Source: a virus
Strand: one strand, 5' to 3'
Length of the DNA: 42,358 nucleotides
IMG/VR virus record: IMGVR_UViG_3300037264_006454
Coordinates: 1-42,358 of that record
Shown here piece by piece: positions 4,501-24,619 of this stretch (positions are counted from its first letter, which is position 1; each line of letters starts with the position of its first letter). The notes beneath the pieces were generated by a model. The model saw nothing but the letters and a program-made list of their open reading frames with translations. It had not been told where the DNA came from and did no database searches. A program made the translations under genes and the position numbers.

Positions 4501-5196
4501 TTACTTGTTACTTAGGCCAGCTATCCTGTGGCCTGTTTTTTCGATGAAAAGCTTTCTAAAGAAGCTGTTGTGCACGTACATCTCTCTTATTTTTTTGGTA
4601 GATCTGATCCGCTGAAGCTGACGGTGCCCGGGTGCTTTGTAGTGTTCTTTGGCGTGGCACATCGGGCATAGGACCATTAGGTTTTTTACGGCGTTCCCGT
4701 CCTTGCTTCGTTTTCCGTTTTTATGATGGATAGCCAACATACCAACCTCTTCACACCACCCGCACCCCTCGCACGCGTACCCTTTGAACACAAAGGCTTT
4801 GTACTTGTAGCGAAGGTTCTGCATTGGGAGGTTGGGGTCACTGAGCGTGGTGGACATAGAGGAGTAAAATCCACCGCAAATTTTGGAACAAAACTTATTC
4901 GCGTTCCCGTCTCTCTTTAGAACCACGACATGTTTTCCACATGTGAGGCAGTCAAACCTCTTTCTGTTCTCAATCCAGGATTTACTTTTACATTCCCAGG
5001 AGCAGAACTTTTGATGCCTATACTTTTCGTCAGTGGTTTTTCTACGCGGACTTAGAAATTTCTCTTTGCATCTAGTACAGACCTTGAAGCGTTTTACTAT
5101 GGCTCTGTTCGCGTGTTGACAGGCTCTTGAGCAGAATTTTCTATTCCTGTGTGGCGCGTTGTAAGTTCGGTGACATTGCGGACAGCGAAGTAACAT
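4501..5196 (-). CDS. HNH homing-type endonuclease with four Cys zinc-ribbon pairs
   Basis: A 231-residue protein built from repeated zinc knuckles: C5/C8 with C22/C26, C40/C43 with C65/C69, C83/C86 with C103/C107, and C142/C145 with C177/C180. The last pair frames an HNH nuclease core: IHHKNG at 156-161, Asn172 in KNLMVLC, and His181/His185 in CHAKEH. HNH enzymes cut DNA using one metal in the beta-beta-alpha fold, and free-standing copies in phages usually spread by homing. GGAGGGG five bases before the ATG supports this start. It is inserted between the spike gene and the 208-aa gene, breaking a virion operon, as expected of a mobile homing gene. No intron boundary was detected. Confidence 0.85.
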   Translation of the reverse strand: MLLRCPQCHRTYNAPHRNRKFCSRACQHANRAIVKRFKVCTRCKEKFLSPRRKTTDEKYRHQKFCSWECKSKSWIENRKRFDCLTCGKHVVVLKRDGNANKFCSKICGGFYSSMSTTLSDPNLPMQNLRYKYKAFVFKGYACEGCGWCEEVGMLAIHHKNGKRSKDGNAVKNLMVLCPMCHAKEHYKAPGHRQLQRIRSTKKIREMYVHNSFFRKLFIEKTGHRIAGLSNK

Positions 5197-8852: not shown

Positions 8853-8890
8853 AAAGCCCCGGTAGCTGGATATGCTATCGGGGCTTTCTT
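8853..8890 (+). terminator. Intrinsic terminator after the 264-aa gene
   Basis: AAAGCCCCGGTAGC pairs with GCTATCGGGGCTTT across a seven-base loop and is followed by CTT. The peptidase gene begins 15 bases further on. Confidence 0.85.
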
Positions 8891-8904
8891 ACAAAGGAGA
8901 CCCC

Positions 8905-10203
8905 ATGAAACTGATTCTACTTGGTTTGCTGCTATTGGTAGGGTGTAGCAAGCCTTCACCCTACGACATCAATGATCCCATTTTTTCTTACGCCAAGCAG
9001 GAGCGAGATGAGCTGGTGGCTGCCTGCGGTCCAGGCATCATCGCGGGTCAGAAGGGCGAGAACCACTGCACCTACCAGGTGGCAATGGACTCGTTGTTCT
9101 TTCAGCACCCTTCTCAGAAAACCGGACTCCTGCACGATCCGGATTGGGCCTACAGAGATGGCGTCGAGTGGGTTACGGCGTCGACCATGATTCCAGCACC
9201 CAACGTCTTCGATCTCAGAGAGCTGATGAAGAACGGGCAGCCCGAGATAAAGCAGCAGCAGTGCGGCGACTGTTGGGCCTGGGCGTCCCACCATGGCTAT
9301 GAGATATCACAGGCCGTACACGATGGGCTCGTCGTGGACAACTCCGTGCAGTCAGTATTGTCCTGCTCCAAGCAGGGTAGCTGCGGCGGCGGGTATATGT
9401 CGGCGGTTGATTTTATCCGTAATGGGCTGCCGCTCGAGGCGGGCTTTGCCTATCTCAATGGCACCACAGGCAAGTGCAAGTTCAATACGGCCGAGCTGAC
9501 CGCTGGCTGGGAACCCAAGATGGTAGGGACCCCCTACATTGGCTCGTCTCTGAACTACTCACGCTTCCTCAAAACGGATGACGGTTTTGCGGCAAAGCCC
9601 ACCGTTCAGGAGATGCGAGATATCTCCTTTCAGTGGAAGGCTCCGCTGGTCGTTACTGTGTCGGCTTACTCGGCCAGCGGTGACGGCATCGTTAACAGCT
9701 GCTCTGCGATCAACTCCGGCGGCAATCACATGGTCACCATCGTAGGATGGGATGACGAGAGCAGCCAGCTCAACGCGCACGTTTGGAATAGCTGGGGCAA
9801 GGCACACGGCAAAGACGGTGTCAGCAGAATCAAATGGGAGTGCGGGGCCGGCAAGCTGAACCGCGGGCTGGGCGTTTCTGCCAAAGTCGTGCAGTACAGA
9901 ACCGAGTGCAAAGTGCCGGTAGCGGCTATGGGCCCGGCCAAGCGTATGGTCATGCAAGGACTGTCGGTGAAGCTGGGCAAGAAGATGGCCGGCCAAACGT
10001 GCAAGTGGACGCCCTCGGAGGGGCTTTCTGACCCGAATGCTTGTGAGACGTTCGCCACGCCGTCGGTCAATACCGAGTACCACATGGTCGCAAGTAACGG
10101 TTGCGGTACGGCATCGACGATCACTCTCGTAGAGGTCTGGAGCCCAGGTGGTGGCCGGATCAACGACGAGGTCAAGACTCCGCATGGGACGGTGACGTTG
10201 TAG
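8905..10203 (+). CDS. Papain-like (C1A) cysteine peptidase, lipoprotein with PKD-like tail
   Basis: 432 residues from the ATG at 8905, with AAAGGAGA just upstream. Residues 1-14 are a lipoprotein signal ending LLVGC (Cys14), so the mature protein should be lipid-anchored, probably on the outer membrane since Ser follows the Cys. The catalytic set of papain is intact: Gln117 (oxyanion), Cys123 in CGDCWAWA, His275 in GGNHMVTIVGW and Asn295 in VWNSWG. Residues 154-163 (CSKQGSCGGG) match the conserved Cys/Gly stretch after the active site. Residues about 345-420 (KWTPSEGLSDP, NTEYHMVASNGCGTAS) look like a PKD/Ig-type beta-sandwich. Surface-exposed peptidases of this class are rare in phages; possible roles are superinfection exclusion or lysogenic conversion. 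A longer start at 8872 lies in the terminator and is rejected. Confidence 0.9.
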   Translation: MKLILLGLLLLVGCSKPSPYDINDPIFSYAKQERDELVAACGPGIIAGQKGENHCTYQVAMDSLFFQHPSQKTGLLHDPDWAYRDGVEWVTASTMIPAPNVFDLRELMKNGQPEIKQQQCGDCWAWASHHGYEISQAVHDGLVVDNSVQSVLSCSKQGSCGGGYMSAVDFIRNGLPLEAGFAYLNGTTGKCKFNTAELTAGWEPKMVGTPYIGSSLNYSRFLKTDDGFAAKPTVQEMRDISFQWKAPLVVTVSAYSASGDGIVNSCSAINSGGNHMVTIVGWDDESSQLNAHVWNSWGKAHGKDGVSRIKWECGAGKLNRGLGVSAKVVQYRTECKVPVAAMGPAKRMVMQGLSVKLGKKMAGQTCKWTPSEGLSDPNACETFATPSVNTEYHMVASNGCGTASTITLVEVWSPGGGRINDEVKTPHGTVTL

Positions 10204-11616: not shown

Positions 11617-13311
11617 CTACATTTTAGCAAACTTGCGGCCTGCCAGGTAGAGGGGGATGCCAACGGCTGCAGCCGCGCCAAGCATTTTGAGCTTGCTCAT
11701 GGGCTGCGGCGCTGGCGCAACAGACTGGGCACGCTCAGCTGTCGGGGCCTTTGGCTGGAAGAACGACTGATCGTACTTACCAGGCTTGCCTTTGAGCAGG
11801 CCGCGGAACTGGGAGTTGAGCTCGTTCTTACGTTCAGCCACACCGTATATCCATTTATCGATGCCCTGGTCCTCGTGACCGAATAGTTTCTTTGCGCTCG
11901 ACAGCAACCCAGGCTTGTCTGGTGTAGACACGTAGCGTTTTACCTTCACATCCTTCACAGTGGAACCAAGACGTCGCACTCTGGCCTCGGCTTGCTCGAT
12001 CCGCTCGGGGTTGTAGTGTCCTTCGGCGAGTTGCATGAGGTTGACGTCTTTGAGGTCGAGGCCCTCTGCTCCGGCTCCGGAGATGAGGAGCACTCTTTTT
12101 TTACTACTCTGGAAATCCTTGAGGGCTTCTTCTCGCTCTTTGGAGGAGCTGCCTTCATTTCCTGTTCCATAGAATTTGGAGTAGTCCATTCCCTTAGCTT
12201 TGAGGCCCTTTTCAATGGCAGATAGCTGACCGGTGAGCAGGTTGCCAAAGATGACGGTCTTGTGTTTTGGGTTGGCGCCCAGGTGCTTCTCAGCGTCTTC
12301 GACCATGGCCTTTACCTTGGGAGAGTACTCTCCCGGGTTCTGCTTCTGGAGCTGCCTCGAGAGAACGCCTGGGTCAGTCGAGATCTGGCGTGCTTGCATG
12401 AGCTTACCAAAGGCGGCGCTGGCCTCCCTCTGCCCCACGGGTATGTTGTAGCGGATCTTCCACCGCGTAATCGGGTCAACGGAGCTCATGGTAAAATCGT
12501 AGATGCGGCGCTGCTCCGTGCTCATAGGAGTTTCCACGGTCTCCACCGTCTTCTTGGGCAAGGAGCTCGCGATATCTTCGTGGGAGAGGAAATCAACTTT
12601 GTTGCGCAGGTACTTGCCCAGCTGATCCGAGTGCTTCAGAGCCTTGGGGGACTCCTTGCCAAAGAAACTCTTGGTGGACTTGCCAACAAAGCGCTTCGTA
12701 AACTCTTCCTTGGTGCCCAGCTCGTGGCCGTGTTCACCGTAAGTCACATCCAGCAGGGGCACGACATCGCCAGGCTCGTTATTGACGATGGAGCCGGTGA
12801 GCGTGATCGCGCCCTTGACCTTGCCACGCAGCCTCTTCAGCTGCTTGTAGGTCGCGCCCTCTGTCCCGCGGGCCCGGTGGATCTCGTCCATGATCAGCGT
12901 ATCGGCGCCAGTGTCGGCGAGAATCTTGTCCCCGTGGGAGCGGAAGAGATCGTAGCTGATGATGTTGTAGTCGGCGTCAGACTTGTCGCCGATTTGCTTT
13001 GAGTCCTTCTCACCTTTGGGGCCGTAGGTACTGTACGACGAGTCAGTAAACTGTTTGATGCCCTTCTCGGTGAAGTTGCTACGAAGGGCGGCTGGCACGA
13101 CCACGATCGCGCGGTTAGCTTTGCCCTTGGCTTTTAAGTTCTCGAAGGCGGCGATTCCGGAGAGGGTCTTACCGGATCCGGTCGCATGGGCGACGAGCAT
13201 GCTGCCGTCGTTCTCCTCAGTGCGTTTGACCACGCGCTTTTGATGGTCAGTCAGCTTTACGCTGGACTTCAGGCGGGCCCGCTTCTCAAAGGCTGCCAGG
13301 AAGGTGGTCAC
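11617..13311 (-). CDS. SNF2-like superfamily 2 helicase with tag and C-terminal hydrophobic segment
   Basis: 564 residues from the GTG at 13311 (GTGTGA overlap with the 56-aa gene). It starts with the shared tag, here TTFLAAFEKRARLK. Helicase motifs follow: Q-like LTDHQKRVV at 20-28, Walker A GSGKT at 45-49, DEIH at 142-145, motif III LTGS at 171-174, motif V GAEGLDLKDVNL, and motif VI ERIEQAEARVRRLGS. This is the SNF2 type of dsDNA translocase rather than a replicative helicase. A Pro/Ala linker precedes a C-terminal stretch (MLGAAAAVGIPLYLAG) that looks membrane-seeking, followed by RKFAKM. A longer start at 13371 lies inside the upstream gene in another frame and is rejected. A role in injected DNA handling or protection, like the packaged DarB helicase of P1, is an inference. 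Confidence 0.88.
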   Translation of the reverse strand: MTTFLAAFEKRARLKSSVKLTDHQKRVVKRTEENDGSMLVAHATGSGKTLSGIAAFENLKAKGKANRAIVVVPAALRSNFTEKGIKQFTDSSYSTYGPKGEKDSKQIGDKSDADYNIISYDLFRSHGDKILADTGADTLIMDEIHRARGTEGATYKQLKRLRGKVKGAITLTGSIVNNEPGDVVPLLDVTYGEHGHELGTKEEFTKRFVGKSTKSFFGKESPKALKHSDQLGKYLRNKVDFLSHEDIASSLPKKTVETVETPMSTEQRRIYDFTMSSVDPITRWKIRYNIPVGQREASAAFGKLMQARQISTDPGVLSRQLQKQNPGEYSPKVKAMVEDAEKHLGANPKHKTVIFGNLLTGQLSAIEKGLKAKGMDYSKFYGTGNEGSSSKEREEALKDFQSSKKRVLLISGAGAEGLDLKDVNLMQLAEGHYNPERIEQAEARVRRLGSTVKDVKVKRYVSTPDKPGLLSSAKKLFGHEDQGIDKWIYGVAERKNELNSQFRGLLKGKPGKYDQSFFQPKAPTAERAQSVAPAPQPMSKLKMLGAAAAVGIPLYLAGRKFAKM

Positions 13312-13478
13312 ACGCTTTCCCCGCAGAGCTTCACACGGCCGTCGTGAGCGTCGTAGGCCACGTCTCCGCAAGCCTCCTCAACCTGGACGCGGCCGTCTTC
13401 AGCAACGACGTCCACTTGGGCGTTGCCGTAGCTGGCACGGATCTCCTGAAGGCGCGTGATGAGGGTGTCAATGTCCAT
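13308..13478 (-). CDS. Small acidic protein (56 aa)
   Basis: A 56-residue acidic protein, MDIDTLITRLQEIRASYG at the start and VKLCGESV at the end, with two Cys. Its ATG overlaps the end of the DUF5661-type gene and its stop overlaps the helicase GTG (GTGTGA), so it is translationally coupled on both sides. It does not carry the tag. The middle (NAQVDVVAEDGRVQVEEA) reads like the small beta-strand proteins often found in phages. Function unknown. Confidence 0.7.
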   Translation of the reverse strand: MDIDTLITRLQEIRASYGNAQVDVVAEDGRVQVEEACGDVAYDAHDGRVKLCGESV

Positions 13479-13698
13479 GTTCCATCTTCTTCAGTTTGGA
13501 ATAGTACTTGGGGTCTTCTTTGAGATGGTCGAGCGCGATCTCTTTGGCTAGCACCTTGCTACCGGTGTGCTCCTTCTCTACGCTTCCGCCCATCGCCAGT
13601 TGCTTCGGGTCTGCATCAGCGTAGTCAAGCTTGTCACCCAGGCCGCCGTGGACGAGGTCTTTGCGAGCTCGCTTTTCGAAGCCGGTCCAGAAGCTCAT
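13468..13698 (-). CDS. Tagged DUF5661-like protein (76 aa)
   Basis: A 76-residue protein with the shared tag MSFWTGFEKRARKD, then a DUF5661-like domain: GGLGDKLDYADADPKQLAMG, VEKEHTGSKVLAKEIALDHL and EDPKYYSKLKKME. DUF5661 proteins are small, of unknown function, and widespread in bacteria and phages, often as the C-terminal part of larger proteins. The tag plus domain arrangement suggests a ready-made domain joined to a delivery peptide. It overlaps both neighbours by a few bases. Confidence 0.75.
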   Translation of the reverse strand: MSFWTGFEKRARKDLVHGGLGDKLDYADADPKQLAMGGSVEKEHTGSKVLAKEIALDHLKEDPKYYSKLKKMEHGH

Positions 13699-14396
13699 TT
13701 GTGCACGTTCACGGTTACGCCCTTGGCCTCAGCTGGCTTGGGCTTTGGTTTAGCTTTCGGCTTCTTCTCTTCCGGAGGCGGAGCCGACTGCTCCACATCC
13801 TCTACTCCGGGCAGGCCCTGGGCATCGAGAACGGGCTTACCCTTCTCGTCGATCGCGGGCTGCGTGGGGTTCATACCCTCGTCCATGCTCTCGACCGATT
13901 GCGAAGCCATCTCCTGGTCGCGCTGCTCCCAGGCCCGCACTACTCCGGGAGCGTCCCAGAGGCTGCAGCACATGCGAGGGGTCACATCGAGCAGCATCTC
14001 GGGGTTCGTGCAAAAACCTTTCTTCATCTTCTTGTCCAGGATACGGACGAAGGAGCAGTTGCCGCAGTTGGCGCCCTCCACATCCGAAGGAAGGGTCACG
14101 AGATCAGCGGCCTGAGCTCGCTGCATGGCCTCGGGGCTCATGGGGTCCACGCCGCCCTGGGCGTTGAACTTCATGATAGGGCTGACGTCCTCAGCCATCT
14201 CCGCACGCTTGGTGAAACCGTCTAGGAAGGAGGCGTGCTTTTCAACGCCAGCTTTGCGCTCGAGCTCCTGCTCCTCGTCAGACTCCTGGTCTTCCTGCTC
14301 GAAGGTCTCACGGGCCTCATGCTTGTCGAGGAGCTCTTTGAGCTCTCCTTTGGTTGCACCGTCAGCTTGCTTTTTGAAGCCTGTCCAGAAATTCAT
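13695..14396 (-). CDS. Tagged protein with second internal tag and Cys cluster (233 aa)
   Basis: 233 residues. It starts MNFWTGFKKQADGATK, continues with a highly acidic helix (EQEDQESDEEQELERK), and then has a second copy of the tag at about 54-66 (ASFLDGFTKRAEMA). Around 105-150 is a Cys motif, CGNCSFV, then GFCTNPEML and MCCSLW, five Cys in a pattern reminiscent of small iron-sulfur or zinc domains such as high-potential iron-sulfur proteins. The C-terminal 70 residues are Pro/Lys-rich and look disordered. The two tags suggest fusion of two tagged proteins or a processed precursor. It lies in the tagged gene train immediately after the polymerase. Confidence 0.7.
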   Translation of the reverse strand: MNFWTGFKKQADGATKGELKELLDKHEARETFEQEDQESDEEQELERKAGVEKHASFLDGFTKRAEMAEDVSPIMKFNAQGGVDPMSPEAMQRAQAADLVTLPSDVEGANCGNCSFVRILDKKMKKGFCTNPEMLLDVTPRMCCSLWDAPGVVRAWEQRDQEMASQSVESMDEGMNPTQPAIDEKGKPVLDAQGLPGVEDVEQSAPPPEEKKPKAKPKPKPAEAKGVTVNVHK

Positions 14397-14626
14397 CTCG
14401 ACTCCTTACGTGGTACAGAAAGCCTGTGGAAGTTGTCTTCGAGTTCTTTACGTGTTTTGGAACCAGCGACGGCCGGAACGTGCCTATTGTGTAGACTCCG
14501 GCCGTGCCTTCCTTCTAAATCCATGATGTGCTCATGCCGATCGATCTTGTCCCAGGTTCGGAAATGGCCACGGCCACCAACTGAAGCCCGCTTCTCGAAG
14601 CCCGCCCAGAAGTTAGTACTTTCCAT
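14393..14626 (-). CDS. Tagged basic protein (77 aa) directly after the RNA polymerase
   Basis: 77 residues from the ATG at 14626, which lies 14 bases inside the polymerase gene end. It starts MESTNFWAGFEKRASVGG, the shared tag with three extra residues. The rest is rich in His and Arg (HFRTWDKIDRHEHIMDLEGR) and probably binds nucleic acid or metal, though no family is recognised. I chose this start because it puts the tag at the N-terminus as in the other members. The longer frame start at 14713 lies deep inside the polymerase gene. Confidence 0.7.
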   Translation of the reverse strand: MESTNFWAGFEKRASVGGRGHFRTWDKIDRHEHIMDLEGRHGRSLHNRHVPAVAGSKTRKELEDNFHRLSVPRKESR

Positions 14627-17600
14627 CTTTGCCCTTCCCAAAAGTCGTTCCGTGGGCGAATGCCGGCACGGGGTGGTAGTCCTCGAGGTCCGTACTCCAC
14701 GCCTGCCCGGCACCTTCCGTCAGGGCTTTGGCCAGGTTACGGTAACCGAGCGCGCTCATCCAGTTCCGCTTGAGAAGCGGTAGCGTTGTCACGCTTTTCA
14801 GCATGGGTGCGTGCTGGATGGCATCCTTCTTCACCAGGACCTCTTTGTGGCCCAGTGCCTTGAGAAGGATGACCTCTTTGGTGCCGACCACTGTGCCGGC
14901 CCGGAGCAGCCCGTAGGTCCTCTCCAAAGTATAGCCGACCGCGTCCGCGACGGGTACCGTGGCGACCAGATTCTCGTTGTAATGCTGCGCCACGGTATAG
15001 GGCACGACGTCGCCCGGGACAAAGTCAGATTGCTTAGGATTATTGAGCACTCGGGTGGTGTTCCCGAGGCTCCTGACCACCGTCTCGAACACCTTCCGGT
15101 GAATCCGGACGCCCTGGTCTGAGTAGGCCTTGTGCAGCTCATCCACGACGTACTCCTGGGCGGGCTGCATGCCCTTCAGCTGCACGAGGTCCTGTGGCTT
15201 CACCACACCCTCGGAGAGAGTGTCGCCCGCACGCACACGGGCACCCACGGCGACCTTCAGGCCCCTTCCATGTGGTACGTGGACCTTCTTGTCGCCCACG
15301 TAAATGTCAAAGCCGCCGGCGATACCCTTGGTCACTAAAGTGACCAAGCCGTCATGAGGCGCGAGCGCCGCGGCCCCGGGCACGACCTTTGGCATCTTGA
15401 GCAGCTGGTCGATGCGCTTATAGCCGCCTGGTTCTACGCCAGTTTTGGCGGTCCCGCCTGTATGGAATGAGCTCAGTACAAGCTGCACCAACGGCTCTGA
15501 AATAGTCTGCCCTGCCTTAGCGCCGATGTTCTCCCCTACTTCGGGGGTATGACCGTGCTCGTCCAGGCCGTAGCATTTGGCGCAGGTGCCCTTGGGCTGC
15601 AGGCAAGTCAGCGGGCTTCTGACCATGACCTGCTTAGCTCCCCCTTTACGGAGGCGGTTGGCCACGGCCGCATCGATCAGCACGTTGGTAACGGCCTGGA
15701 AGCGCTCCAAGATATCCTGGCTGTCGACGTTCATCAGCACGCCCTTCTTGGTGCCGCAGTCCTTGGCCGAGATAACGTTGTCGATGGTACTGGCCATGAT
15801 GTCCTTCGAGAAGGCACCAGGCAGGCTCGTCTGAATCGCACGATCCATCATGCCCCGGCGGGCGCCGTACATGCTGGTCCAGTAGTCGCCAATGTCGAGG
15901 CCCTCGGCGTACGACTTCTTGATGACTGACGGTACGATTTTACCGGACGCGTCTGTTACAAATAAAGGGGTTGCGAGCATCTGTCTGAGTTGGCCACGTT
16001 CACCGCGTGCCCCAGACTCGACCATGTCATAGAGCGGGTTGTTCTTGCCCTTGAACCGCTTTGAAAGGATGCTGTCCAGTAGCGCAATACCGACACGGTT
16101 GGCGTCGGCCAGGTTGGTCATGCCACCGACCTTCTTCGTGATCTTGTCGCGGTTCCCTCGCATTACCGACAGATCATCCAGGCCAAGAGTGAATCCCGTA
16201 TCGAAGGCATGCTTCTCTCCCTCGGCCTTGAGCTCGGTCAGTACTCGGCCGTACTCATTTGAGCCGAGTTCCTTGCTCAGTCGATGAAGCATGTCGTGCA
16301 TGCTCTTTTTGGAAACGGTCTCAGTTATCAGCGGCTTGTCGATGATCTTGTTCAGCCGCGCGCGGCCAGCCGGCGTCTGCGACAGGTAGAAGAGGCCTAC
16401 CTGCGCTTCTTGCGACGGCACCATCATCAGCTTGCCCGTGCCCGGCTGGTATAGGTTCCTGGACGGTAGCATCTTCTCAGCTTCGCGGTTGGCTTCGTCA
16501 GATATCGGGACGTGTACAACGACGGTGTCCCCGTCGAAATCCAATCCAAAGCCCTTGTTGATAAGTGGCTGCACCTTCACCGCTGTCCCCGAAGTCAGCT
16601 TCGGCCGGAAGGCCATGATCGAAAATTTGTGCAGTGACGGCGCCCGGTTTAGCAGCACCTTGCGGCTGGCCATCACTACATCGAGAGCTTTCTTGGCGAG
16701 CTCTGTCTTGAGCTTGATCTCATCCAGGGCCTGGTTGGGGGTCTTGCCGAAGCGGCCGAGCTCGCGGACGAGGAACGGCTCAAAGACCTTCCAGGCCATT
16801 TGCTCTGGAATCGCAAGTTCATCTACTCCCAACGTAGGCTCTGGAATTGCGGTTGCGCGGCCAGCGTAGTCCTGCCGCTTACTGAGCATCTTGCTGATGA
16901 AGAATCCTTCTTTGGGCTGGCCCTCGGCGCCACCACCCTTGATATCTGAGATGAAGCCGGCGCGCTCACGGCCTTTGATGGGGATGTCGACCAGGCCGCT
17001 GATGCCCTTGGCGTGGTGGTAGATATCGCCACGGATCATGGCCTTGTCTTCTTCAGGCAGCATGTCCACGACTGGAAACTTGTGCAGCTGATTCAGAATG
17101 GCCAAGTTCTGGTAGATCAGGTTCACGTCCGACGTGGTCGTACTGCCGTCGGGCAGAGTGTAGATGGGCCTGTACACCGGTGGGACGACCGGCATGGTCT
17201 TTCGCAAGTACGCTTCAGTAGGTTTCAGGTCGTACTTCTTCAGCGCCATCAGGTAGCGAATCTTCTTGTTGAGATCATCCAGCACAGCACCCTTGGCCGT
17301 CTTGGACTTCTCCAGGTGGCCCTTGAGCTGGGCATCAACGTCGATGTTGCCGAGCAGCTTCTCTACGGCGTGCCCGCCAGTGACTCCGCGGCCTTCTTTG
17401 TTGAGATCCCCGTTCTTATCCAGATGAAGCCGACCGGCCATGAGCTCGTCGTACTTGCCGCCGAGACCGGTGAGCTTACGGACAGCATTCTCAAACACCG
17501 GGTTGACGATCGGTTCTTTGAGGTTGATGTGCCCCCACTTGGTCCCTTTGAAGCCGCCGAATTTGACCGGATCCAGGAAGCCGTCCTTCTCGGGCTGCTT

Positions 17601-20591
17601 GTCCTTGGCTCTGAAAAACTTTGGGTTGGTGACCTCTCCGGAAGAGAGCTTCTTGACCTCGCTGTCTGTCAGCGGGGCAAGCGTCAGCTTGGAGCCGTCC
17701 TTTCTGACGTCAATGCCGGCGCCGCGCAGATAGGCCATGAACTTGTCGTAGACAAAGGGCGAGGTCGGAGGCGGCAGCTGCTGCCCTTCTTTGAGTGCCT
17801 TCCAGTACTCGTCGTTCTGGCTGGCCTTGGTCGTGCTCATCTCCCGCAGGTTGGCGCGCGCCCCGTGGGAGAGCATGGAGTACATCGTCAGCAAATCGAG
17901 CGACTTTGAACTCTCCTCGCCGCCGGCTTTGAGCGGTTGCAGGTTTATGTCGTAAGGGTGGCCTGGACCGCCCTGGCGCGCGGAGAAGTTACCCTGGCTC
18001 AGTTTGAAGAGCTTCAATATGTAGGGATTGCCCACGTGCACGCGGCCGAGCTTCTTGCCGGTGACCGGATCAAAGAGCTCTTCCTTGTCATCTACGCCGG
18101 CATCCTTCAAATGCTTCTTGGTTGTCTCGAGGTAATCCTCGTTGGTGAAGTTGCTCATCACGTACGGCTTGCCCTTTTTCTTGGCTGCCTTGGCAATGGA
18201 CGACTCGTAGGTCTGACCAATGTTGATGCGTGAGATGATGCCGTGCGGGTTGAGCAGGATATCTACGGCCTCGCCCTTGGCGTTGCGTGGGGCGTCCCCG
18301 TCCTTGATGATGCGGGTGATGATGCCCTTGTTCCCGTGCCTACCCGCTAATTTATCTCCGATCTTAGCTCGTTCCTCTGTGCGTATGAAAACCGTCACGC
18401 CCTTGGAAGTGCGCTGCACGTCGATGACTTCGCCTGTGTCATCGTAGGACCAGTACACGCTATCGTCCCTGGGCCGGTCCGCGAGCTGGCGTTGAACGAC
18501 GCCGATCATCTTGCTCGGTTCCCGGCGGCGAAGGGCGGCGATGACCGCGTCTCCCATTTCCACCTTCTGGCCCTTGCGGATGACGCCGTCTTCGTCGAGC
18601 TTCTTCAGGTTCTCAGGGGTGAGCGCGTTCGGGTACTGCGTCTTGAATGTGCTCAGCTTGAGTACGGTCGTATCGTCAGTATCAAGCGTCTTCCTATGAA
18701 TATGCGTACTGGTGAGCTTTTCAGCTGCAGCCTCAGTAATAACGATCCCGTCGTCGTGGTTGAGACCTTGATACGGCAGATATGCAGTCCTGAGATTCGT
18801 ACCGAGTGCAAGAGTGCCGCCTTTGGTGAAGTTGCTTTCGGCCAAGAGCTGGCCCTTCTTGACCTTCTGTCCTACGGTCACGACGACTTCATGGTGCAGG
18901 TAGCTCTTACGATTCAGAACGAAATTGTTGTAGAGGCCGATCTTCTGCTCACCGGCTTTTGTTTTGAGCATCAGAAAGTCTTTGGAGATCTTTGTGATCG
19001 TGCCATCTTCCGGAGCGGTTACGGCTGTGTGCTTGCCGATCTCGTGCTCCATCGAGTTCGCACCGTAGCTGACCTGGACCAGAGGAGCTTCTCTGTGCTT
19101 GAGCGAGATCGCCTGCTCGAGCATCTTCGCCGCCATCATTGCCCGGTTGCCCTGGTTTGACGGGAGGAACGGGATCAAATTTGTGCTCATGGAGAAGAGC
19201 GCTTCCGGGGCAATGGTGAAGTAGTCCACTTCCTTGCGGGGCACCTCTATGGTTTGCCCCTTGTAGTTGACCTTTACCTTGTCACCCTTCTGGCCTGGGA
19301 ACGCGATCTTGGCATTGAAGGCTTGCGTAGCCGTGAGCTCTGCTGGCTTGTTGTTGCGGTCGGCGAGAACCATCTTCAGTTCTTTGCCGACCTTTCTCGC
19401 ACCGAGTGGAAGGTGGAGATTGGCACCTATGCGGCTGCTTTCTGGAGTGTTCACTGGATCAATGAACCCATAGTGGGTCGGGTGGATCTCGCGCATGGAC
19501 GAGGTCACTGCGTGCTCGCTAGTGACACCGCCGGATCCCATGATAGTGGCGCGGGCCTGGCCAGACGCCATCTCCAGCGGGTTCGTTTGCTCTGGCGTGG
19601 AGGACTTGTCATCCTGGGTGAAGAAGCTCTCCACGGTGGAGTTGAAAGCCTCCGGGTTCACGATCTGAGCAACGGTGGCCCTCTTCAGGTTGTCGATGCT
19701 GCGCTTTATCTTAAAGGTCAGAGTGTCTCTGTTTTTCTCGAGGCGCTCCTTGAGAAAGTCGTCGAGAGAGTGCAGTTCTTTGTACTCTAAAGAGTTCAAA
19801 TCGTGGGGCTCTTCTTTGGCCAGATGCACGTTCAAAAGCTTCTTGCTGGCAGCGAGCATCATCGGGCCGCTGACCTTGTCGAAGCCCTCGCCGAGTGTCA
19901 GCCTCGCCATTTCAGGGCTGAGCTTGGTCTTGGAGAAGTACTCTTTCAGATCGCCGACGCGGATACCAAAAGCGGTCACTGCGCGGGCGACTGACTTTGG
20001 GTCTGAGTCGCGGTTCGCCTGCAATAGCTCAGAGCCCCACGCTTGCGCTATGGCTTGGTCGCTCATGCCCATATACGACAGGATGGGGTAGAGCGGAATG
20101 TTGGCTTGCCCGCCGGCCACCTTGGAGATGGAGAAGCGGCCCTTTGTCTCATCGAACACGATGTCGAAGTTCTTTCCCTGGGCCAGGTTCACCATGGTCT
20201 TCAGTTCACCGTTCTGCTTCTTGACGATGTACACACCGGACCGCAGACGGAGCTGATTGTTGACCTGGTACTCGTTGCCGCCAACGATGTAAGAAAACCT
20301 GGGGGTGATCTTGGGCAGCAGGAACAGCCGCACCTTTGCGCTGTTGACAGCTTTGCCGGTCTGCTTGTCGATCAGTGACAGCCCTGCATATACAGGCACG
20401 CCCCACGTTCCACTTTTGGCCTTGGCCTCTGATTGAGAAGCGTAGTCAGTCTGCTCCAGCTTATCTTCCACGGTCACGCCGTCGAGTCGAAGCGACCGGA
20501 GCTTTCCTTCGATGGGGAACACGCCCCTGACCGCGTCAGTAGCTGCCTTTTTTATCGTCTCGAATTGCTGTCTGACATCGAAAGTTTTCAT
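14613..20591 (-). CDS. rpoBC: Fused beta-beta' multisubunit-type RNA polymerase (1992 aa)
   Basis: A single 1992-residue chain carrying both large subunits of a bacterial-type RNA polymerase. Beta part, about 1-925: HPTHYGFIDPVNTPESSRIG at 370-389, NLRTAYLPYQGLNHDDGIVI at 599-618, DKLAGRHGNKG at 746-756 and LNPHGIISRINIGQ at 780-793. Beta' part, about 985-1992: GHINL at 1020-1024, KRQDYAGRA at 1238-1246, NRAPSLHKF at 1315-1323, the catalytic DFDGD at 1351-1355, SGARG at 1526-1530 and a trigger loop at 1690-1714. One beta' zinc site is kept (Cys1612, 1663, 1670, 1673); the N-terminal zinc ribbon is missing. NADFDGD reads GLDFDGD. No alpha, omega or sigma gene was seen in the window. The gene leads a leftward operon of tagged genes and has no clear ribosome site. 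It could be a virion or an intracellular phage polymerase. Confidence 0.95.
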   Translation of the reverse strand: MKTFDVRQQFETIKKAATDAVRGVFPIEGKLRSLRLDGVTVEDKLEQTDYASQSEAKAKSGTWGVPVYAGLSLIDKQTGKAVNSAKVRLFLLPKITPRFSYIVGGNEYQVNNQLRLRSGVYIVKKQNGELKTMVNLAQGKNFDIVFDETKGRFSISKVAGGQANIPLYPILSYMGMSDQAIAQAWGSELLQANRDSDPKSVARAVTAFGIRVGDLKEYFSKTKLSPEMARLTLGEGFDKVSGPMMLAASKKLLNVHLAKEEPHDLNSLEYKELHSLDDFLKERLEKNRDTLTFKIKRSIDNLKRATVAQIVNPEAFNSTVESFFTQDDKSSTPEQTNPLEMASGQARATIMGSGGVTSEHAVTSSMREIHPTHYGFIDPVNTPESSRIGANLHLPLGARKVGKELKMVLADRNNKPAELTATQAFNAKIAFPGQKGDKVKVNYKGQTIEVPRKEVDYFTIAPEALFSMSTNLIPFLPSNQGNRAMMAAKMLEQAISLKHREAPLVQVSYGANSMEHEIGKHTAVTAPEDGTITKISKDFLMLKTKAGEQKIGLYNNFVLNRKSYLHHEVVVTVGQKVKKGQLLAESNFTKGGTLALGTNLRTAYLPYQGLNHDDGIVITEAAAEKLTSTHIHRKTLDTDDTTVLKLSTFKTQYPNALTPENLKKLDEDGVIRKGQKVEMGDAVIAALRRREPSKMIGVVQRQLADRPRDDSVYWSYDDTGEVIDVQRTSKGVTVFIRTEERAKIGDKLAGRHGNKGIITRIIKDGDAPRNAKGEAVDILLNPHGIISRINIGQTYESSIAKAAKKKGKPYVMSNFTNEDYLETTKKHLKDAGVDDKEELFDPVTGKKLGRVHVGNPYILKLFKLSQGNFSARQGGPGHPYDINLQPLKAGGEESSKSLDLLTMYSMLSHGARANLREMSTTKASQNDEYWKALKEGQQLPPPTSPFVYDKFMAYLRGAGIDVRKDGSKLTLAPLTDSEVKKLSSGEVTNPKFFRAKDKQPEKDGFLDPVKFGGFKGTKWGHINLKEPIVNPVFENAVRKLTGLGGKYDELMAGRLHLDKNGDLNKEGRGVTGGHAVEKLLGNIDVDAQLKGHLEKSKTAKGAVLDDLNKKIRYLMALKKYDLKPTEAYLRKTMPVVPPVYRPIYTLPDGSTTTSDVNLIYQNLAILNQLHKFPVVDMLPEEDKAMIRGDIYHHAKGISGLVDIPIKGRERAGFISDIKGGGAEGQPKEGFFISKMLSKRQDYAGRATAIPEPTLGVDELAIPEQMAWKVFEPFLVRELGRFGKTPNQALDEIKLKTELAKKALDVVMASRKVLLNRAPSLHKFSIMAFRPKLTSGTAVKVQPLINKGFGLDFDGDTVVVHVPISDEANREAEKMLPSRNLYQPGTGKLMMVPSQEAQVGLFYLSQTPAGRARLNKIIDKPLITETVSKKSMHDMLHRLSKELGSNEYGRVLTELKAEGEKHAFDTGFTLGLDDLSVMRGNRDKITKKVGGMTNLADANRVGIALLDSILSKRFKGKNNPLYDMVESGARGERGQLRQMLATPLFVTDASGKIVPSVIKKSYAEGLDIGDYWTSMYGARRGMMDRAIQTSLPGAFSKDIMASTIDNVISAKDCGTKKGVLMNVDSQDILERFQAVTNVLIDAAVANRLRKGGAKQVMVRSPLTCLQPKGTCAKCYGLDEHGHTPEVGENIGAKAGQTISEPLVQLVLSSFHTGGTAKTGVEPGGYKRIDQLLKMPKVVPGAAALAPHDGLVTLVTKGIAGGFDIYVGDKKVHVPHGRGLKVAVGARVRAGDTLSEGVVKPQDLVQLKGMQPAQEYVVDELHKAYSDQGVRIHRKVFETVVRSLGNTTRVLNNPKQSDFVPGDVVPYTVAQHYNENLVATVPVADAVGYTLERTYGLLRAGTVVGTKEVILLKALGHKEVLVKKDAIQHAPMLKSVTTLPLLKRNWMSALGYRNLAKALTEGAGQAWSTDLEDYHPVPAFAHGTTFGKGKDGKY

Positions 20592-21110: not shown

Positions 21111-22277
21111 CTACAGAGCCGGGGTTTCATTTCCTGTCGAAACACCGTCCGGGATCGGGGCCATGGGAGGGATCTGCTTCTTTGCCGGGGTTGCCAGCAT
21201 AGCGTCCATCATGGCCGTCTTCACACGGGTTATGCTGGCCAGGTCGCTCGCCATCTGTTCTCTCGGGTTCTTCTTTCGAATGGAGCCGGCTGCGTGGCCG
21301 CCCAGGGCCATGGCACCGCCGAAGCCGATGGCTTTACCGGCGCCGGTTATGTTCTTTCTGAAGGCCTTTATCGAGGAGCCAGTGGCCTGCAACTTCTCTG
21401 GAAGGAAGTGCTTCTTGACCAGGTCCTCGATCTTTTTGTCCGCACTCACGGCAGCCTTGCCGAAGCTAGCTACTCCGCCCATATCGGCGATGAAGCTGTC
21501 TATGCGGGCCTTATCCAACTTGAGATCACGCATGGCCCACCTGGACTTTTTACCGCCCTCTACGATATCCAGGAACAGGTCAGCGTGGCGCGGAGAGTAC
21601 TTGGAGATGGCTCTGTACGCGGGGGCTACGTAGTGCTTGCCCACTTCCTGGCCAGATATCAGAGGGCCAAGATACTTGGCCGGATAGTCGATTGCGCTCA
21701 CCGCTACCGGGTGCTTGAGCCATTTCGTAGCCAGCGTTCTGGCACCGCCGCGAATTCCCTCCGCGCCTTGCATGACTGAGGAGAGTATTTTCTGAGTGTT
21801 GGTCAGTGGCTTGCCCAAATCTTGTTTGGCAGCGATGGCCATCAGGCGACGCAGGCCCTTACCAGCCGCGGTAGCCAAAAATGGTAGCGTTGCCAAGTCA
21901 ATGCTGAGGCCCGCCCCGTGCGGGAGCGGGTGGCCAGCAATGGCGCTCGCGGCCTCGATAGCGCTGCCCAGCATCGCCCTCTTTTCACTTTCCGGAAGGA
22001 TGGCGGCCAGGTTGAAGAGCGGGCCTTTATCGCGCAGGTTGTAGAACCGCTTTACGCGGTTCAGGGCGGCGTGCTCTTCGCGGGCTGCGCGCCTTCGCAA
22101 AAACCCGGTACCGAAAGCCGAGCTCCCCAACCCCAGGGCGGTGCCCTTCATTCCCTTGTAGCCGGCTATGCCTGCACCAGCGAGTGCGGCGGTCGTGGCG
22201 GCCGTGTAAAGGTTCTTGAGCTTCTTCTGGTTTTCGTAGCTCTTGATATCAGCTTTAATTTTAGCCCTGGGATCCAT
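21111..22277 (-). CDS. Ala/Gly-rich protein with hydrophobic segments (388 aa)
   Basis: 388 residues from the ATG at 22277, which overlaps the end of the tagged 70-aa gene (longer start at 22373 rejected). Hydrophobic Ala/Gly stretches occur near residues 22-45 (TAATTAALAGAGIAGYKG) and 330-350 (AIGFGGAMALGGHAAGS), with many Lys/Arg between. It resembles the internal or ejected virion proteins of tailed phages in composition (basic, Ala-rich, partly membrane-active), but I recognise no family. It is the last gene of the portal operon before the divergent polymerase region. Confidence 0.6.
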   Translation of the reverse strand: MDPRAKIKADIKSYENQKKLKNLYTAATTAALAGAGIAGYKGMKGTALGLGSSAFGTGFLRRRAAREEHAALNRVKRFYNLRDKGPLFNLAAILPESEKRAMLGSAIEAASAIAGHPLPHGAGLSIDLATLPFLATAAGKGLRRLMAIAAKQDLGKPLTNTQKILSSVMQGAEGIRGGARTLATKWLKHPVAVSAIDYPAKYLGPLISGQEVGKHYVAPAYRAISKYSPRHADLFLDIVEGGKKSRWAMRDLKLDKARIDSFIADMGGVASFGKAAVSADKKIEDLVKKHFLPEKLQATGSSIKAFRKNITGAGKAIGFGGAMALGGHAAGSIRKKNPREQMASDLASITRVKTAMMDAMLATPAKKQIPPMAPIPDGVSTGNETPAL

Positions 22278-22473
22278 ACGCCCCTCTGACCATCTTCTCT
22301 TCTGGATCTTGCGTGGCCTTGTGCACGCCGTAAGCGGCTGCGCCAGTACCAAGCGCACCCCAACCAACCGCACGCTTCAGCTTAGACAGCGGCTTGCCCT
22401 GCTTGGCGGCGAGGTTCTGGTACCAGCCCGCGCGCTTTACAAAGCCCTCTATAAAAGAACTTTTTCGTCCCAT
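22261..22473 (-). CDS. Tagged small membrane-like protein (70 aa)
   Basis: A 70-residue protein starting MGRKSSFIEGFVKRAGWYQN, a version of the shared tag with Ile for Trp. Residues about 37-49 (VGWGALGTGAAAY) form a short Gly/Ala hydrophobic stretch similar to the C-terminal segment of the helicase. The ATG lies inside the end of the 71-aa gene and the stop overlaps the start of the 388-aa gene, so the three are coupled. Function unknown. Confidence 0.65.
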   Translation of the reverse strand: MGRKSSFIEGFVKRAGWYQNLAAKQGKPLSKLKRAVGWGALGTGAAAYGVHKATQDPEEKMVRGAYGSQG

Positions 22474-22664
22474 GTGACCACCAGTATAACGTATTCGTGA
22501 ATGCTGGCTATGTTGCCTTCTTCACTGAACTTTTTTTCTGAAATCTTCTCTTTGTACTCTTTGACGATCGTACAAAGTGGGTCGTTCAGGATCTCGTCGT
22601 ACTCTCGAAGTTCCTCAGTAGAGTCCGTGTTGAACTTCTGGGTCTGTCGCCGAATGTCGTACAT
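22449..22664 (-). CDS. Unknown small acidic protein (71 aa)
   Basis: 71 residues, rich in Glu and Lys, starting MYDIRRQTQKFNTDSTEELR and ending VILVVTWDEKVLL. The start overlaps the portal stop (TAATG). No domain recognised. Its coupling to the portal gene suggests it is made with head proteins. Confidence 0.6.
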   Translation of the reverse strand: MYDIRRQTQKFNTDSTEELREYDEILNDPLCTIVKEYKEKISEKKFSEEGNIASIHEYVILVVTWDEKVLL

Positions 22665-24619
22665 TAAACGGCTCCAACGTGTGTCGGTGCCTTTCTCTCG
22701 GACTGCGGGCTCATGTCGGTCTGGCCGGCTACGAGCTGCGCATACTGCACTTCTACGGCGTGGCCAATGTCAGGCATCTTGGCCTTGAGTTCGCCAATCG
22801 CACTTCTGGCCTCTTGCGGAGGCAACTCAAAAAGCTTCTTCGCCCACTTCTGAACCCGGAGTTCGATATCCTGGTTCACGTTCTGGCCCTGCATCATACC
22901 CTCTTGGCCGGGCATGATACCGCCTTGCTCTGGAAGGGGCGCGGGGAGGGCTGCTTGCCACCCCTGCTGCTGTGGCTGCTCCTGGCCGGGCATTCCCATC
23001 TGATTGGAGTCCATAGACGCTGGTGGTGGCAGCCTCATCTTCTGCGCCTTCTCCATGGCCGCGGCCTGGGCCTTCTGCGCGAGCTCGTTGATCTTCTTCT
23101 GGTAGTTGAACTGGATGACCTGGGCCTCGCCCTGCGTCCTGGCGCCACCTTTGGCCCGAAGATCGTTGAGGTAGTTTTGAAGGTACGCCTCCTCGATCAT
23201 CTTCTTCACTTCTTGCTCGTAGTCGTACCCAAGCTCAGTGAGCATCGTATGATCGGAAACCTTGAACTGGGCGTTGAGGCCAATGAGCTGCTGGTTCTTC
23301 TGAACGTCGTCGGCCATGCGGAAGTCAGCCATGCGGACGCTGTTCAGATCTGGCAAGTTTTGCCAGACGCGGATCTTGTCCTTGACCCACACGACGAAGT
23401 CGAGAAGCTGCGAGCGGTTCTGGATGAAATCGTTCTCGAGCATGCGCAGAGTGACGCTGCTGCCCGTGAAGTTAAGTCCGGAGAACAACAACTCCTTCTG
23501 GAAACCCATGCCGCCGACGATGGTTTCCGTCAGGTAGTTTAGCTCCGGTGTGAGGAGCATCGCCTTGCCGTCGCCGCCGAGACGGCCGAAGCCAACCGGT
23601 ACGGGGATCACACCCTTGAAGTTGGGGTCACGTCTGTGACGACGGATGATGTTCTCTATCTGCAACCGCCAGTTAGCTAGGTCCGTGTGGATATACGGAT
23701 CCTGCTGAGCGTTGGGCAGCGGGTAGATGATATCGAAAGGAACGATGTGCTCCATGGCAATCGCTTCTTGCGCGCGCCGGAGCGTGTACAAATAGTACAT
23801 GTCCTTCAAGACATGGATGATCAGCGGCTTACCCCAGCCCTGGTCTTGCTCGGCCAGAGTCGGCCGGCGCAGGTGCTTGAAGTTGTCGCTATTGAACCGG
23901 ATCATGCGCCGGTTCTTTAGCGCCTCTAAAACGATTTGGGGGATGTCCTCGACGATATCCTTGTCGCCACGTTGGATGGCGTTCTTCAACTTGTACGGGA
24001 TCGAGTACATGTAGATGCGCCGGCCGGTGTACTCGTTGTACTTGACCTGGATGTTCTCCGGGTTCCAGCGCACGATCCGGATGCCCTTGCGGTCGCGGTA
24101 GGGCACGTCTTTGACGTCGGCTGTGGCGTTGCTGTCGCACTTGGAACACTTCAGGTTGAACTCGTAAGCCGACGTATTGAAGGCCCAGTCGGCGGCGGTG
24201 ATGACCTCGCGGTTTTTGCAGTTCCTGCAGATGAGGAAGCGCGTAAAGGGCAGGTGCATGGAGATGAAAGCGTTACCGTAAGTGTGGTAATCGAGGTTGA
24301 TCTCCATCAACCGCTCTTTGATTTTAAGCTCTTTGTTGAAGATGCCGTCCCACAACTCGCGCTTGCTCTCGTGCTCGTCCTCGAGGATCAGGTCCGTAAT
24401 GGGGTACCGGCTGATTTTGCTGATCGTGCTGCCGATGAGGGGCGAGTTGTAGTAGTAGAACGTGCACCAGCGGAACAGCTCCTTGATAGTCGGAGGCATG
24501 TACTGCTGGGCCAGGTCGAAAAACTGGTTCGGATATCTCTGCCCGGATATGCTTCCGCCCAGCTGAGAGCTGGGGTCCATCTGCACATCCGGTGGATTTT
24601 GCAGCGTAAAGTTAGACAT
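22664..24619 (-). CDS. Portal protein with zinc-ribbon insertion
   Basis: A 651-residue protein with the layout of a tailed-phage portal, the dodecameric ring through which DNA enters and leaves the head. Cues are an N-terminal helix (YMPPTIKELFRWCTFYY), a beta-rich wing, a long central helix region (YYLYTLRRAQEAIAMEHIVPF at about 279-299), and a helical stem with a Gln/Met/Pro-rich C-terminal tail. An unusual insertion carries Cys131, Cys134, Cys158 and Cys161, probably a zinc ribbon in the wing. The gene overlaps its neighbours at both ends. Portal identity is from overall pattern and context, with no catalytic motif to confirm it. Confidence 0.75.
   Translation of the reverse strand: MSNFTLQNPPDVQMDPSSQLGGSISGQRYPNQFFDLAQQYMPPTIKELFRWCTFYYYNSPLIGSTISKISRYPITDLILEDEHESKRELWDGIFNKELKIKERLMEINLDYHTYGNAFISMHLPFTRFLICRNCKNREVITAADWAFNTSAYEFNLKCSKCDSNATADVKDVPYRDRKGIRIVRWNPENIQVKYNEYTGRRIYMYSIPYKLKNAIQRGDKDIVEDIPQIVLEALKNRRMIRFNSDNFKHLRRPTLAEQDQGWGKPLIIHVLKDMYYLYTLRRAQEAIAMEHIVPFDIIYPLPNAQQDPYIHTDLANWRLQIENIIRRHRRDPNFKGVIPVPVGFGRLGGDGKAMLLTPELNYLTETIVGGMGFQKELLFSGLNFTGSSVTLRMLENDFIQNRSQLLDFVVWVKDKIRVWQNLPDLNSVRMADFRMADDVQKNQQLIGLNAQFKVSDHTMLTELGYDYEQEVKKMIEEAYLQNYLNDLRAKGGARTQGEAQVIQFNYQKKINELAQKAQAAAMEKAQKMRLPPPASMDSNQMGMPGQEQPQQQGWQAALPAPLPEQGGIMPGQEGMMQGQNVNQDIELRVQKWAKKLFELPPQEARSAIGELKAKMPDIGHAVEVQYAQLVAGQTDMSPQSERKAPTHVGAV

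Follow-up and report, generated by a model that had tools for sequence, protein, structure and literature searches.

The window, i.e., the whole stretch of DNA analysed here, is a linear viral record of 42,358 bases from IMG/VR (IMGVR_UViG_3300037264_006454; GC 57%), which carries a gene for an RNA polymerase (RNAP) in which complete bacterial-type beta and beta' subunits are found in one polypeptide. The frame opens with an ATG, backed by relatives whose alignments begin at Met1, and runs for 1992 amino acids (aa) with zero internal stops. A first-pass annotation had described one 1992-residue frame at 14613-20591, and these coordinates held, with the strand corrected to minus. Pfam recognises Rpb2_6 (9.9e-59) and Rpb2_3, followed by Rpb1_1, Rpb1_2, and Rpb1_5, along the chain, and a phmmer search of the PDB recovered bacterial beta' chains at best at 5e-94 and beta chains at 3e-85. 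The beta portion ends near residue 962 and the beta' portion starts near residue 966, which makes the junction practically linker-free (Table 1). Given that 36 other IMG/VR loci hold the full chain in one frame, a chance frame, a frameshift, or an artefact of assembly can be ruled out. Compared with the nearest relative (contig L006), the third codon positions differ by 64% and the second positions by 15%, at an amino-acid identity of 74%, and the gene is thus under strong purifying selection.

The catalytic landmarks of both subunits, which the first-pass annotation had placed in this single frame (DFDGD at residues 1351-1355, a trigger loop at 1690-1714), were located as described, and the hallmarks of the two-barrel polymerases (double-psi beta-barrel, DPBB) are all found, namely, the DxDGD of beta', the GNKG barrel of beta, the bridge helix, and the trigger loop. 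The same annotation had noted the loss of the beta' N-terminal zinc ribbon and a GL in the place of the usual NA ahead of DFDGD, and both are real. In the alignment, the window chain reads 'FGGFKGTKWGHINL' in the place of the bacterial 'FGP..CxCGKYKR..CxxCGVEV..MGHIEL', the ribbon being excised exactly and cleanly between 'FG' and 'WGHI', and it is also missing in two sister phage clades. The GL is genuine (codons GGA TTG) and private to the window contig; its fused relatives have NADFDGD at this place, except for a few with GA or NADFNGD.

Structure prediction, which had been proposed as a check, recovered the expected folds in both halves. The AlphaFold model of the beta half, built from a 20-row alignment, has a predicted local distance difference test (pLDDT) score of 78, and aligns with the beta of cyanobacteria and plastids at a Z of about 35, over up to 829 residues, with a root-mean-square deviation (rmsd) of 4.0. 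The model of residues 797-1992 reached a pLDDT of 71 and a predicted template modelling score (pTM) of 0.39, the placement of the domains not being predicted, and it is matched by beta' chains from model residue 170 or so (= residue 966) at a Z of 29-31 and a global rmsd of 44. Given this pTM and this rmsd, only the domain folds are used from the model, which supports the predicted folds of the beta' domains and not their arrangement.

Table 1. Features of the polymerase gene and of other genes discussed in the text (window positions unless a locus is named).
Feature	Position	Strand	Evidence
Single-chain beta-beta' RNAP gene, 1992 aa	14613..20591	-	frame reading, Pfam, phmmer, relatives
Beta half, residues about 1-963	17703..20591	-	AlphaFold model, structure match
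Beta' half, residues about 966-1992	14616..17696	-	structure alignment start at residue 966, phmmer
Beta/beta' junction, residues about 960-966	17694..17714	-	fused in all three architectures
Beta GNKG active-site motif, residues 753-756	18324..18335	-	alignment
Site of lost beta' zinc ribbon, residues about 1012-1019	17535..17558	-	alignment
DFDGD catalytic loop, residues 1351-1355, GL in front	16527..16541	-	sequence reading
Bridge helix GARRGMMDRAIQT, residues 1576-1588	15828..15866	-	phmmer, alignment
Second beta' zinc site, C1612, C1663, C1670, C1673	15573..15758	-	alignment
Trigger-loop region, residues 1690-1714 (FHTGG at 1709)	15450..15524	-	sequence, phmmer
Gene between portal and polymerase, function unassigned	21111..22373	-	38% to L006 contig
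Portal protein gene, upstream of polymerase block	22664..24619	-	PHROG portal 7e-6; Arash portal 8e-81
SNF2-type helicase, homologue of Arash Gp217	11617..13371	-	Pfam SNF2-rel_dom 7e-19; 31%, 6e-52 to Arash
Papain-family cysteine protease	8872-10203	+	7e-19; one weak homologue, L006 contig
HNH endonuclease gene	4501-5196	-	counterpart absent from relatives read
Tag-bearing genes	13468-13698, 13695-14396, 11617-13371, 1624-1884, 14393-14713, 22261-22473	all -	
Vibrio phage D181 intron loci	L014:4464-4744 and L014:667-874		

A scan for close relatives returned nine loci, all with the chain end to end, and an alignment-based scan, after which the frames were read for their architecture, returned 80. 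Architecture A is the single chain, usually of 1990-2100 aa, which is present at 36 complete loci besides the window, in addition to truncated ones. In architecture B, a protein of 1510-1546 aa comprises beta and beta' to just past the catalytic barrel (residue about 1405), and the C-terminal part of beta' is a separate gene of about 610 aa; its members include the cultured Vibrio phage D69 and Salmonella phage Arash. In architecture C, a piece of 1113-1185 aa ends near residue 1060, and is accompanied by a middle piece of 381-441 aa and a separate C-terminal gene as in B. The beta/beta' boundary used by cells is fused in A, B, and C alike. The first-pass annotation had regarded the full fusion as a distinct architecture, unlike that of the phiKZ-type phages, which stands, but the fusion is the hallmark of an uncultured phage lineage and not the peculiarity of one phage, as the 36 further loci attest.

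In a tree of 60 rows, the bacteria (support of 100) are set apart from the phages (100), with the clades A (93), B (96), and C (100), and the best bacterial identity over beta' is no more than 30%. The most parsimonious history would be one beta-beta' fusion with the loss of the zinc ribbon, followed by a fission after the barrel in the ancestor of B and C, and a second fission in C. The phiKZ-type and cyanobacterial beta' are split at a place that matches the first of these fission sites (PMC7598289), and given this coincidence, the site may be structurally tolerant and repeatedly used. The first-pass annotation had proposed a phylogeny including bacteria with fused rpoBC, in which a recent capture from a host was the outcome to look for, and no such capture occurred. 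The fused loci of Helicobacter (L151 and L153; 2901 and 2908 aa) lie far from the phage clade and group with a Campylobacterales genome that has separate genes, and this position makes them an independent fusion inside Campylobacterota. The window chain does not lie within Campylobacterota, and its membership of a Helicobacter-type fusion was rejected.

The first-pass annotation had also reported that no sigma, alpha, or omega gene was visible. For alpha (insert and dimerisation models) and omega this agrees with the records searched, given that no match was found in the window, in several relatives of 130-187 kb, in Arash, or in D69, with positive controls and with metagenomic contigs that may be incomplete. 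For sigma it does not hold in the close relatives. Sigma70 region 2 (PF04542) is matched in 12/12 contigs of B and C versus 1/12 contigs of A, and a search with PF04545 gave weak matches only, but a Gp10-type sigma was reached by phmmer from divergent region-4 matches in two A contigs (L038/L048). This search, used to its first round (a later iteration, which pulled in bacterial RpoD, was disregarded), recovered sigmas of 257-270 aa in the L006 contig (6.5e-26) and the L010 contig (8.4e-24), together with Gp10 of Arash at 1.7e-23, far above the bacterial sigmas (2e-4 or worse). As judged from these matches, the single-chain phages keep the sigma type that Arash packages. Given that the contigs of L006, the nearest relative, and L010 encode Gp10 orthologues, the missing sigma of the window is an effect of the fragmentary contig. 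The other Arash sigma, Gp196, was not found in the text or table of the Arash paper (PMC10585845). A further contig, that of L033, encodes a protein of 449 aa (L207), in which a sigma region-4 domain is combined with a long N-terminus resembling a coiled coil.

At all loci that extend far enough to show it (62/62; 35 A, 10 B, 17 C), a portal gene lies directly upstream of the polymerase. In Arash virions, the orthologue Gp206 heads the detected proteins (3516 spectra, 128 unique peptides), and spectra were also assigned to Gp216 (1210), the adjacent helicase Gp217 (1148), the portal (877), and the sigma Gp10 (467) (PMC10585845). The window shares with Arash (Gp206 + Gp216) and with D69, D148, and D181 a common clade, a beta fused to the N-terminal part of beta', and the loss of the zinc ribbon; its lineage also shares with the Arash/D69 orthologues a portal just upstream, with neither alpha nor omega found, and with Arash, the Gp10-type sigma and the SNF2-type helicase. 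Unlike the window chain, to which it is about 32% identical, that of Arash is split past the catalytic barrel into pieces of 1525 and about 610 aa, annotated as beta and beta', and, unlike the window lineage, Arash has an additional Gp196-type sigma; the separate gene for the C-terminal part of beta' is a feature of Arash and D69, and the window and 36 loci carry this part in frame.

The reading preferred here, to which we would assign a probability of about 0.72, is an alpha- and omega-free, single-chain virion RNAP with its own Gp10-type sigma. The gene encodes the whole catalytic core of a bacterial-type RNAP as one polypeptide, in which the covalent joining of beta and beta' would replace the assembly platform of alpha and omega that is absent from these phages. 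The polymerase, its gene following that of the portal, would be made late with the head proteins, and be packaged in the virion together with the helicase of SNF2 type and with its partner, a dedicated sigma from the family of Arash Gp10. The packaged enzyme may then enter the cell with the DNA and transcribe the early phage genes. For the window phage, the packaging and the use of sigma are suggested by orthology to the cultured Arash, whose RNAP is about 32% identical and two-piece. This difference is one of several points that weigh against the preferred reading, together with the unpredicted placement of the beta' domains, the GL in front of the catalytic aspartates, which is found in no relative of the window chain, and the sigma gene not seen in the window itself. 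In addition, the authors of the Arash study caution that abundant enzymes can carry over into purified particles (PMC10585845), and the window phage is known here from sequence alone.

The alternative that survives best, itself unlikely, is that the polymerase is a non-virion (middle or late) enzyme made after infection, whose gene merely lies among structural genes. In the phiKZ-type phages, a virion enzyme is accompanied by a non-virion one (PMC7598289), and the window genome is incomplete, with a second enzyme possible. On the other hand, the pairing with the portal gene is invariant, the orthologue is the most detected protein in Arash particles (PMC10585845), and the single-chain phages keep the Gp10-type sigma, the one found in Arash virions. 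It is considerably less probable that the single chain is a precursor, cut into beta and beta' by the papain-family protease encoded nearby; the sister clades do work as two to three pieces, but these are cut inside beta' and not at the beta/beta' junction, and the protease lies on the other strand, with one weak homologue in the relatives read. Slightly more improbable still is that the protein decayed or was repurposed, its polymerase activity lost and its role in the virion now structural or inhibitory; the private GLDFDGD could point to this, but the three catalytic aspartates, the bridge helix, the trigger loop, and the beta GNKG are kept, in a gene under strong purifying selection. Finally, the idea that a phage recently acquired its fused rpoBC from bacteria, for instance Helicobacter, where such fusions do exist, can be practically dismissed, having been refuted by the tree, the low bacterial identity, and a phage chain without the beta' zinc ribbon, a loss common to two sister phage clades.

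The proposed single-chain virion RNAP can also be set against other known systems. Helicobacter RpoBC, likewise an in-frame fusion of beta and beta', operates together with alpha and omega, and differs from the window chain in its independent origin and its size of about 2900 aa. The phiKZ/AR9-type enzymes are alpha/omega-free, like the window lineage, with a known virion enzyme, and have, like the two- and three-piece sisters, a beta' cut after the DPBB; unlike the window, they consist of four or five polypeptides, with beta also split and the sigma unrecognisable (PMC7598289). Matches in the catalytic region were mostly at E values of 0.1-0.8 for the phiKZ type, among which the Staphylococcus jumbo phages reached 2e-4, and at about 1e-33 for bacteria, and phiKZ was left out of the tree owing to its long branches. 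Membership of the phiKZ type was rejected, as beta and beta' are unsplit in the window, whose sequence is closer to bacteria. The crAss-like and YonO-type DPBB polymerases also form one chain, but almost the full length of the window chain finds a match in cellular beta and beta', and the crAss enzyme is divergent enough to be missed by the COG0085/COG0086 models (PMC7481178).

The mReC phages, like the window, encode beta/beta' cores near cellular RNAP on a deep branch (PMC7481178). A scan with separate-gene phage beta' queries returned 80 loci; three of the contigs come from sample 3300017989, the source of two published mReC representatives (PMC7481178), and the equation of this separate-gene group with the published mReC is made from this sample and the architecture, not from sequence names. 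At the mReC-type loci, beta' and beta are in separate frames in 83/83, beta' precedes beta in the loci read, and the zinc ribbon is kept in most. In a second tree (LG+G4, SH-aLRT only, with a weak deep branching order), the mReC-type and fused clades form separate groups, each with a support of 100, with the bacteria between them (89). Membership of mReC was rejected, given that the window genes are fused and their RNAP lies outside the mReC-type clade. The mReC PF07068 capsid was found in 0/21 records of the fused clade and in two separate-gene records, the window itself being only a fragment, and the NADxDGD filter of the mReC study would have excluded the window chain (GLDFDGD) (PMC7481178). 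Four mReC-type contigs (L278/L303, L276/L304, L232/L307, and L241/L306) each hold two beta'/beta pairs that differ from each other, the beta of one pair being larger, at about 1365 aa; this amounts to two polymerases per phage, as in phiKZ.

If the preferred reading is true, a single-chain enzyme that uses sigma, does without alpha and omega, and has a cellular-like core would be a two-barrel transcription machine of unusual simplicity and, encoded by one gene, a practical tool for work in vitro, and covalent tethering would suggest a route to the loss of the platform in phage polymerases. No description of a phage beta-beta' fusion was found in the literature searched, which is not proof of absence, and what is new lies in the architecture and evolution of the enzyme and not in its kind. 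In the Arash paper, Gp206 is named simply 'subunit beta' (PMC10585845), and this annotation can be re-read, as gp206 (L015:11932-16509) comprises beta and the catalytic N-terminal part of beta'. With the junction still fused but the chain cut at other places, the sister phages provide a worked case of fusion followed by re-fission. Fragmented phage polymerases have been viewed as primitive (PMC7824862), and this case bears directly on the open dispute over their primitive or derived nature. That the phiKZ-type enzymes themselves stem from this fused ancestor, split again past the catalytic barrel, is a doubtful proposition, under which fragmented jumbo-phage polymerases would be derived and not relics of a multi-piece ancestor.

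The polymerase genes of certain relatives contain in-frame inserts that resemble inteins in their sequence signatures (L006:14069-15589, L009:8611-10035, L019:14078-15499, L007:8701-9756, L008:15440-16660, and L090:11282-12817). Their sites lie behind the catalytic DFDGD, following TPE at residue 384 of beta, and within the trigger loop at residue 1710. At certain inserts (L007, L009, L011, L012, L019, L033, and L035), a catalytic aspartate reads asparagine (DFNGD|S or DFDGN|C), and close insert-free relatives read DFDGD; candidate explanations for this asparagine are co-conversion with the mobile element and Asn-Gly deamidation. In Vibrio phage D181 (L014), the polymerase gene holds a group I intron with a homing endonuclease at residue 478 or so, with another nearby, and Vibrio phage D69 is without a polymerase intron.

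Elsewhere in the window, the HNH endonuclease gene is probably a homing gene, and a truncated minus-strand frame at 3-473, which is 53% identical to an 864-aa protein of the L006 contig, seems to begin as a large terminase and to run on into a stretch that resembles an intein. Finally, a tag, F[WL]xGFxK[RKQ]A, is found on many unrelated proteins, mostly just after the start codon, with strict matches numbering 6 in the window, 11 in the L006 contig, and 12 in the L010 contig, and 0 both in shuffled sequences and in bacterial frames totalling 0.9 million residues. It is possibly a virion-packaging or targeting signal, and a looser copy, FLAAFEKRA, is carried by the helicase.

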